Shown here piece by piece: positions 14,602-17,124 of a stretch of 36,279 bases of DNA (its first letter is position 1; each line of letters begins with the position of its first letter). The stretch is from contig JAEEOP010000035.1 of the NCBI GenBank assembly GCA_016284295.1, forward strand, positions 1 through 36,279, given 5' to 3'. Under the pieces are notes generated by a model. The model was given only the letters and a program-made list of their open reading frames with translations. It ran no database searches and was not told the origin of the DNA. Made by a program: the position numbers and the translations under genes. The stretch is from Methanomassiliicoccaceae archaeon (GTDB lineage: Archaea > Thermoplasmatota > Thermoplasmata > Methanomassiliicoccales > Methanomethylophilaceae).

Positions 14602-15093
14602 ATGGAGTCCGATTTCGAGATGAGCGTGCGCGAGTTCCTAGCCAGGCCTCCGTTCCGCTTCAGAGGGCTTACGGATGAGCAGCTCTTCCTTTTCTGCACC
14701 GCGCTGACCCATGACAGCTACTCCAACGAGGCCGCCGACATGGATCCCCCGAGGCACGTGTAGTCCTACGAGCGCCTGGAGTTCCTTGGGGATTCAATCC
14801 TGGAGTTCGTGGTCTGCGAGCATGTCTTTCTCGACACTACGGTGAGCGAAGGCCCCATGACCGATTACAAGCAGGACAAGGTGGCCAACCACATGCTGTC
14901 GCAGCGCATCCTTGACAAGGGGATACGGATAGACGATGTTATGAGGGTGGGCCACGGGCATCTGAAGGGGCATTCCAGGTCTATCGAGGAGAACATGCGC
15001 GCGGATTGCTTCGAGGCGCTGATGGCCGCCGTCTACCTCTCATTCGGCATGGACGAGGCCCGTCGCGTCATCCGTGCGGTCGTCCTTGACTGA
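14602..15093 (+). CDS. rnc: Short ribonuclease III with an in-frame TAG (probable pyrrolysine) codon
   Basis: RNase III cuts double-stranded RNA. Read through the TAG at 14761 the protein has 163 residues. It shows LTHDSYSNEA and then, directly after the TAG codon (residue 54), SYERLEFLGDSILE carrying catalytic Glu60 and Asp64. NMRADCFEALMAAVYLSFG carries Asp135 and Glu138. All four acidic catalytic positions are present, so the gene looks functional apart from the TAG. There is no double-stranded-RNA-binding domain, as in Mini-III enzymes. Termination at TAG would leave 53 residues without any catalytic residue, and restarting at the ATG at 14809 would lose Glu60 and Asp64. The last 26 bases overlap the convergent MATE gene. 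RNase III is uncommon in archaea. The stop is TGA. Confidence 0.85.
14761..14763 (+). other. In-frame TAG in the RNase III gene (candidate pyrrolysine, residue 54)
   Basis: The codons read CAC-GTG-TAG-TCC-TAC-GAG, with the RNase III signature continuing in frame immediately afterwards. No base insertion or deletion is needed to join the two parts. Confidence 0.75.
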
Positions 15094-16447
15094 CCCTGTC
15101 CCCGGACAGGTACCCGTAGCGTCCGTCCAACCTGTACAGCGTCACGACCACCAAGACGGTGGTGATTATCTCGGTGATAGGCACGGCCCACCATATGTCA
15201 TCTATCCCGAAGACGGCCGGCAGGACGATGATCAGCGGAACAAGGAGCAACAGCGAACGGATGAATGATATCGCCGCCGATATCAGTCCGTTGGAAAGCG
15301 ATGTGTACAGCGACGAGGCGTACACGTTGATCCCCATGAACAGGAATCCTATCGAGTATATCGCCGCACCGTGGACGATCAGCTCCATGACGCTCTCCGA
15401 CGCATCGGCGAAGAACCTCGCCACCGTTCCGGAGAACAGCTCCATTGCTATGAATATCACAATTGATAGCATCATGATGAACACGGACGATATCCTGAAC
15501 AGTCTCTACATGCCGCCCCTGTCCCCGGCACCGTGGTGATAGGACATGATCGGGGCCACGCCGTTGGAGTATCCGATCACGGCGGAGATCGCCAGGAACT
15601 GCACGTAGGCTATGATGCTGATGGTCGCCACGCCGTCCGGTCCGATGTAATGCATCATGACCAGGTTGTAGCAGAGGGTGGTTATCCCCCCGGAGATCTC
15701 GGACACCATCTCGGAGATGCCGTTGGACACCGAGGAGCCTATCGCTTTCATCCCTTTGGACGGTCTCGTGAAGTGGACCGGAAGGGTCCTGACTGTGAAG
15801 AGGTACAGCGCGATGAGGGTCGGGATCAGGGAACCTATCCCGCTGGCGGCAGCGGCCCCCTCCAGCCCCCAGCCGAAGATCACTATGAAGACGTAGTCCA
15901 GGACGATGTTGGCTACGCCCGCGGCTATGGATGTGAGGAGGGCGATGGACGGCCTTCCGGCCACCACCAGGAACTGGTTGGTGATGAACTGCAGCACCAG
16001 GAACACCGTGAACGGCAGGTACACGGAGGTGTACCTCACGCATCCGTCGAGCAGCGTCCCGTCTGCTCCCAGGAGCAGGGCCATGGGTTCGAGGAAGATG
16101 AATCCCAGGATGGCGAATACGATGCAGAGGATGGAAGACACCAGCAGGATCTGCGAGAACGCTGCCCTCGCATCGTCTGGCCTCCCTTTCCCGAACAGGT
16201 TGGAGACGTATGCGCTCCCGCCCGTGGCGAACATGAACCCCATGCCGCTGATGAGCGAGAACAGGGGATACATGATGTTCAGCGATGCCAATGCGTCCGT
16301 GTCGACGTAATTGGAGATGAACGCTCCATCCACTATGCTGTAGGATGATACGAACATCATCATTACTATCGAAGGCAGGGCGAACCTCATGACCTTCCGC
16401 CAGCCGGTGATAGTTCCGAGCTGCTGGTCGGAGGAAGTTTCAGGCAT
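15068..16447 (-). CDS. MATE-family multidrug/sodium antiporter with an in-frame TAG (probable pyrrolysine) codon
   Basis: MATE proteins are twelve-helix exporters driven by Na+ or H+. Read through the TAG at 15506-15508 this one has 459 residues, the normal length. The first half has SIVDGAFISNYVDTDALAS, ATGGSAYVSNLFGKGRPDDA and a hydrophobic-helix series; the second half repeats the pattern from SNGISEMVSEISGG to GYSNGVAPIMSYHHGAGD. TAG is residue 314, in the loop after Gly-Ala-Gly-Asp-Arg-Gly-Gly-Met, where relatives often have Lys or Arg. The remaining 145 residues continue in frame with four or five more helices. The ATG at 16447 lies about 26 bases after TTTTTATAT, suiting a leaderless message; a GTG at 16459 is possible. 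The stop is TGA. Substrate unknown. Confidence 0.88.
15506..15508 (-). other. In-frame TAG in the MATE gene (candidate pyrrolysine, residue 314)
   Basis: The minus-strand codons read GGC-ATG-TAG-AGA-CTG-TTC. Both flanks match one MATE protein in the same frame. Stopping here would remove the last four or five membrane helices. Confidence 0.75.
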
Positions 16448-16469
16448 CGGGACTTGCACATAATTATGA

Positions 16470-16480
16470 TATAAAAACCG
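16470..16480 (-). promoter_or_regulatory. TATA-like box of the MATE gene
   Basis: On the minus strand TTTTTATATC lies about 25-30 bases before the ATG at 16447, as expected for a leaderless archaeal transcript. Confidence 0.45.
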
Positions 16481-16599
16481 GAGCCAAGGGCCGTTCCCGA
16501 CCGGATGCGGCCGTCGACCACAGGCACTGTAGGTTCACCGTAGAACAAGCGAATCCTCAAGCATGCGCCGAAGGCGGGAAGGATTTCATCGAGGGCCAG

Positions 16600-17124
16600 T
16601 CATAGAACGGGGCTTCGGTCCCTCTTCAGATACAATCTCCCGTCATCGGTGAATGCTATCTGCTTGATGAGGCGGATCATGGGCCGAGGGATCCTGTCGA
16701 ACCCCAAGTCCTCTACGTGCAAGGCGTCTTCCGGACTGAACGCCTCAAACTCGTTCAGGATCTCGGCGACCATGAGACCCTCGAGATAGGTCGAGTCGAC
16801 CTCGGGACCGTGACCGACCGCCAAGGCCAGCATCCTCATGACCCGTCCGATGCTGTGCCGGTTTCCTGAAGCCGATCCGGTCAACCCTCCGAATTCGGCG
16901 ATACGGCGTATCTCGCCCTCGTCGAAAGCGTTGTGGATGGTTACGCAAAGGGACTCACCATCCTCCAGATAGGTCGCCGGCTCATAAGGGCTGGAGCTTA
17001 TCCGCTAATCCATCGTCCCGTCCATCAGGTGAAGCTCTCCCCCGATGTCCTCGAGGTAGAGACCTCCCTCCCTGTGCAACACGAGCACGTCCGAGGACAT
17101 CCTGTCGTCATTCGGCGATGTCAT
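16600..17124 (-). CDS. Protein of unknown function with an in-frame TAG (possible pyrrolysine) codon
   Basis: From the ATG at 17124, read through one TAG at 17005-17007 (residue 40), this frame gives 174 residues ending in TGA. The N-terminus is acidic (LYLEDIGGELHLMDG-like), the middle contains NAFDEGEIRRIAEFGG, and the C-terminus is helical and then basic (FTDDGRLYLKRDRSPVL). No family is recognised. Without readthrough a start at the ATG at 16884 would give only 94 residues. The third-base pattern looks coding on both sides of the TAG. It could also be a decayed gene, since no homologue anchors the first 39 residues. It is the third consecutive gene with an internal TAG, with the same strand as the MATE gene. 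Confidence 0.55.
17005..17007 (-). other. In-frame TAG in the unknown 174-residue gene (candidate pyrrolysine, residue 40)
   Basis: The minus-strand codons read ATG-GAT-TAG-CGG-ATA. The frame is open for 39 codons before and 134 codons after. Weaker than the other two cases because no protein family spans the site. Confidence 0.45.

Follow-up and report, generated by a model that had tools for sequence, protein, structure and literature searches.

The window analysed here, a stretch of 36,279 nucleotides, is an entire contig (C37) of a Methanomassiliicoccaceae archaeon, the genome of which is assembled into 45 contigs totalling 1,857,069 bases. It contains a gene for a one-domain RNase III interrupted by an in-frame TAG codon, next to which lie a convergently oriented transporter gene and, 1.5 kb from the RNase III gene, a gene without recognizable family affiliation (Table 1).

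Table 1. Features of the RNase III locus. Coordinates refer to the window.
Feature	Position	Strand	Support
One-domain RNase III gene, TAG read through, 163 aa, TGA end	14602..15093	+	PF14622, 87.2 bits
Proposed pyrrolysine codon, in-frame TAG at codon 54	14761..14763	+	Relatives: Glu, Pro, others
Codons 60-64, catalytic acids Glu60 and Asp64	14779..14793	+	Invariant in 32 rows
Codons 135-138, catalytic acids Asp135 and Glu138	15004..15015	+	Invariant in 32 rows
MATE-family transporter gene, convergent to RNase III, TAG at codon 314 (15506-15508)	15068..16447	-	PF01554, 141.2 bits
Neighbour gene, no known family, 174 aa, TAG at codon 40 (17005-17007)	16600..17124	-	Same codon TAG in six genomes

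The RNase III frame comprises 53 codons, the TAG, 109 further codons and a terminal TGA, and is otherwise open. In a profile search, PF14622 matched residues 30-161 of the read-through product, spanning the TAG and well above the cut-off of 35 bits, which confirms the single frame with TAG at codon 54 recognized in the initial annotation. Given that homology is found on both sides of the TAG in one frame, this is not a chance frame. All four acidic residues listed in that annotation, the catalytic role of which we assume from the RNase III family, are indeed present and unchanged across 32 aligned sequences. The predicted consequences of termination also hold: ending at the TAG would leave a 53-aa fragment, and the first in-frame ATG, GTG or TTG past it is the GTG at 14809 (residue 70), so that a restart there would lose Glu60 and Asp64. 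The protein shares the signature helix and the catalytic acids with bacterial RNase III (TIGR02191, PF14622), but differs from it in consisting of the nuclease domain alone: TIGR02191 gave 98.2 bits, short of its equivalog cut-off of 166.25, and was covered only at positions 10-136 of 219, corresponding to the nuclease domain. No double-stranded RNA-binding domain follows, only RNase III domain families were matched, and the stop comes after residue 163. We therefore consider the enzyme a one-domain RNase III, because it falls below the full-length cut-off and no second domain was found. In the AlphaFold model (pLDDT 95.7), calculated with Lys in place of Pyl, residue 54 is located in a loop between the helices formed by residues 38-45 and 57-78.

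Although described as uncommon in archaea in the initial annotation, RNase III is no rarity in this family, with matches in 66 of the 102 genomes (the window genome and 65 others); several of the 36 genomes without a match are incomplete. We compared codon 54 of the window gene with that of 31 relatives drawn from the 65 other matching genomes, the alignment that had been proposed as a check. The 32 rows contain Glu (19), Pro (7), a single TAG, and Thr, Gln, Val, Gly and Arg once each; the closest relative (82%) has GAG, one base from TAG. Relative to the latter, the dN/dS ratio is 0.10 before the TAG and 0.07 after it. Nine pairs were compared; no estimate was obtained for one of them, and in the remaining eight the values ranged from 0.07 to 0.21 before and from 0.07 to 0.26 after the TAG, the ratio after the TAG being somewhat above the pre-TAG value in some of them (e.g., L009, L013 and L015). 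In one relative (G061, locus L026), a TAG is located just beyond the matched stretch near the C-terminus and is followed by 7 codons and a TAA; it may be either the stop of that gene or a second read-through site in the RNase III family.

The location of the TAG just ahead of the signature helix, in a gene that must be read through to yield an active enzyme, could be taken to mean that Pyl54 is functional or regulatory and, in particular, that RNase III activity follows the pyrrolysine supply, as the initial annotation envisaged when tying RNA processing to it. We regard such a role as very improbable, and the specific tie to pyrrolysine supply as unsupported. The residue at this position is variable and lies in a loop, no stop was present inside the RNase III match among the matches listed for the 65 other matching genomes, and the 100 bases downstream of the TAG display no sign of a regulatory RNA structure (z -0.46, with 67 of 200 shuffles folding at least as well). 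Furthermore, any dependence on pyrrolysine would be common to citrate synthase and other, unrelated TAG-bearing genes described below.

The genome encodes the machinery for decoding UAG as pyrrolysine, and all components for which a search had been proposed (pylT, pylS and pylBCD) were found. A pyl cassette lies beside mtmB on contig C36, which also encodes tRNA-Pyl with the anticodon CTA (CUA in RNA). PylS matched TIGR02367 with 261.2 bits (cut-off, 178.15), and PylB, PylC and PylD scored 437.7, 311.9 and 201.2 bits, respectively, all above their own cut-offs. The mtmB gene (PF05369) has one in-frame TAG, across which the family match runs, and the best model for a corrinoid protein gene on the same contig, TIGR02370, scored 191.8 bits, under its cut-off of 215.3. 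In the family as a whole, PylS was matched at E ≤ 1e-30 in 75 of the 102 genomes, in 74 of them over the cut-off, whereas the N-terminal model TIGR03912 matched none of the 102, being ill suited to an order for which a shortened PylS is reported. PylS was not found in genomes G060 and G062, yet both contain MtmB with TAG, and pylS is probably missing from these assemblies. Because of its TAG-bearing MtmB, G060 is unfit as a cassette-free control, and we used G087 and G094, in which neither a PylS match (E ≤ 1e-30) nor an MtmB match was detected.

The use of TAG was surveyed in the window and 20 more stretches, which add up to 429,375 bases and represent 23% of the genome (a non-random sample from five contigs), with genes called by a codon-usage score without curated annotation. 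Under the standard code, 403 gene calls ended with TGA (348), TAA (39) or TAG (16). Run-on ends, defined by at least 30 coding-like codons past the stop, were observed for 11 of 16 TAG ends, compared to 4 of 39 TAA and 22 of 348 TGA ends (26 of 387 for the two combined; Fisher p 2.7e-9, TAG versus the rest). The remaining 5 TAG ends had no run-on, and some genes of this genome may still be stopped by TAG. Four relatives were examined by the same procedure after it had been retrained on each genome. The cassette-bearing ones, G060 and G059, both with a TAG-containing MtmB, had run-on at 2 of 4 and 1 of 2 TAG ends, samples too small to be read alone, and the cassette-free G087 and G094 at 2 of 21 and 2 of 13. 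TAG accounts for 4.0% of ends in the window genome, 2.2% in G060 and 1.0% in G059, versus 11.0% in G087 and 6.7% in G094. In the sampled 23% of the window genome, TAG behaves as a sense codon and is hardly used as a stop. An archaeal "Pyl code" in which all TAG codons mean pyrrolysine, reportedly described around 2025 with proteomics, likewise treats TAG as a general sense codon.

These figures also bear on the possibility of a sequencing or assembly error at 14761-14763. The sequence comes from a single assembly, broken into 45 contigs; at this codon the nearest relative is one base away, and the searches brought up no other genome of the species, the best other match being 82%. However, random errors would not prefer TAG to the other two stops in the way that the run-on ends do, and the next two genes of the window carry a TAG as well, which makes an error extremely improbable.

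When TAG was treated as a sense codon, at least one TAG was present in 19 of the 380 genes called, although some of these look spurious, such as L067:18796-19890 with eight TAGs. Eight of the 10 calls scanned against Pfam were matched, and in three of the 10 the family match runs plainly across the TAG, namely in a citrate synthase, at codon 291, and in a pair of nitrogenase-like proteins encoded side by side, at codons 358 and 202. By contrast, the accepted domains of a TPR protein, a pyridoxal-dependent decarboxylase, an ABC transporter and a 2-hydroxyacid dehydrogenase all lie after the TAG, and translation of these four may start downstream of it. The genes of this nitrogenase-like pair, each with its in-frame TAG, are located at L061:7832-11184 (minus strand), one of them being a fusion of NifH-like and component-1-like domains. 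Codon 291 of the citrate synthase gene (L062:3360-4709, minus strand) corresponds to Lys or Arg in the 19 relatives compared, among which TAG occurs elsewhere, at codon 13 in two and at codon 58 in three (loci L092, L095, L103, L105 and L107). The citrate synthase genes of two more genomes of the genus, and a second copy in the window genome, also contain one TAG each. Relatives of the MATE-family transporter align across codon 314, and none of the 19 compared, the distant ones of which are maybe paralogues, has TAG there.

Against this background, a recent nonsense mutation in a dying RNase III gene, which would then produce only the 53-residue fragment, appears highly unlikely. Such decay would fit the restriction of the TAG to a single genome and the lack of an RNase III match in 36 of the 102 family genomes, several of them incomplete, but the pyl cassette is present, the frame bears no other lesion, and other conserved genes of the same genome are also interrupted by TAG.

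We thus favour, with considerable confidence, the explanation that RNase III is made full length by reading UAG as pyrrolysine and that the TAG stems from drift at a tolerant position. Because the genome possesses both a pyl cassette and sense-like TAG ends, a pattern not seen in the two cassette-free relatives, the enzyme is very probably full length with Pyl54. In the proposed mechanism, pyrrolysine-charged tRNA-CUA would read the RNase III UAG, yielding the complete one-domain enzyme, and the codon, one base from the GAG of the nearest relative, most likely arose by drift in the tolerant loop; it counts among several codons of this kind in the genome, in which TAG rarely serves as a stop. 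Insertion of pyrrolysine at residue 54, the efficiency of this step and an unharmed enzyme are inferred; some chains may end at the TAG. The drift reading is limited by the occurrence of this TAG in one genome only, so that selection after its origin is not measurable. The view of RNase III as a candidate pyrrolysine enzyme is accordingly supported as far as the decoding capacity of the genome is concerned, by the cassette and the sense-like TAG, but not in the sense that the TAG matters to the enzyme, the residue being a variable one in a loop.

The gene at 16600-17124 presents a different picture. Of 31 genomes of the genus, 6 contain a match to it; a search of 147 genomes of the order recovered the same 6, and one of 389 genomes sampled from the phylum recovered 2, which belong to these six as well. 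In all six genomes, its codon-40 TAG occupies the same column (relatives' loci L111-L115); a total of 10 columns, this one included, have the same codon throughout. The copy in G057 contains a second TAG. The proteins of the other genomes are 52-84% identical to the window gene product. In 15 pairwise comparisons, dS ranged between 0.40 and 1.74 downstream of the TAG and between 0.33 and 3.36 upstream (two pairs without an upstream estimate), and dN was lower than dS wherever both were estimated. Both sides of the TAG thus evolve as coding sequence, with the TAG being kept. By contrast, the relatives compared do not have the TAG of the window genome at the corresponding positions of RNase III, MATE and citrate synthase. 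Tentatively, the gene could represent a new family that requires pyrrolysine, in which case a role of this amino acid outside the methylamine methyltransferases would be conserved or the TAG would serve as a conserved pyrrolysine-sensing switch, but we hold this to be possible rather than probable. Amino acids are invariant anyway in 60 of the 159 ungapped columns, and all six genomes belong to one genus. Our estimate is further lowered because the codon-58 TAG of citrate synthase is common to three species without being kept by all. In one of the six genomes, G062, PylS was not found; this genome is 82% complete and has MtmB with TAG.

Searches with members of this family returned no match in NCBIfam (2 members), PHROGs or PADLOC (2 members each), one insignificant match in Pfam (3 members; E 0.19), no match among plasmids and phages, and a best hit of only E 0.9 among PDB sequences; of the viral contigs, 93 stretches fit the pattern of the gene, none of them encoding a relative. 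The structure model, built from six sequences, has a pLDDT of 85.4, with 2 of 5 models above 80, and yielded nothing at E ≤ 0.001 in fold searches of PDB and BFVD. A weak hint concerns a TubR-like helix-turn-helix (probability 0.92, E 0.59, 65 columns). A conserved RNA structure in the approximately 150 bases after the TAG was considered and rejected, the covariation term of the consensus fold being unfavourable (+0.89) and two-sided change being seen in 6 of 27 pairs.

The genomic context of the gene is variable. The window genome and G067 are 84% identical in this gene versus 54% in RNase III, and this contrast in sequence identity suggests that the gene may have been transferred between lineages. 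In five loci of relatives (L037-L041), about 60-430 bases separate RNase III from the next gene, a homologue of window gene 17376, and loci L037-L047 gave no match to MATE or to the gene at 16600-17124; the latter two genes (15068-17124), both TAG-bearing, look like a pair inserted in the window genome. Elsewhere, the gene neighbours a DUF1638 gene (G067), a URO-D family gene (G057), or serpin and HerA helicase genes (G069). A 20-residue match to its start, beside a DUF1638-like gene in G057 (L116/L128, G057:C32:100916-100975), is perhaps the remnant of a lost copy.

Publications of 2014 and 2016 (PMC4153887, PMC5011839) describe scattered pyrrolysine codons in ordinary genes of the order. The passages on 'Ca. 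Methanomethylophilus alvus' list 16 putative pyrrolysine proteins besides the methyltransferases, with TAG forming 1.6% of stops, and those on methanogenic archaeon ISO4-H5 give in-frame amber codons in 46 genes. Both organisms belong to the same order as the one studied here; in the former, as in the window genome, ordinary genes carry TAG where relatives have none, and in the latter, from the rumen, TAG is found in adenylate kinase, an isomerase, Cas3 and others. The former is another species, however, and RNase III is missing from its Table 7 (PMC4153887); the passages on ISO4-H5 (PMC5011839) do not name it either. Our literature search returned no paper joining RNase III, or ribonuclease III and pyrrolysine, with Methanomassiliicoccales. 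The conserved TAG of the gene at 16600-17124 is likewise absent from the passages of these two sources.

The window RNase III is therefore one more case of a known phenomenon, that of scattered TAG codons. With it, an RNA-processing enzyme joins the ordinary proteins likely to contain pyrrolysine through drift, and it illustrates how such genes are split when gene callers take TAG for a stop. The gene at 16600-17124 is the more novel lead and the strongest of this analysis. Retention of a TAG among diverged relatives, as seen in this gene, helps to sort function from drift and marks a candidate for bench tests. If the reading proposed for it is true, the conserved roles of pyrrolysine would extend beyond the methylamine methyltransferases, or the codon would act as a conserved pyrrolysine-sensing switch.
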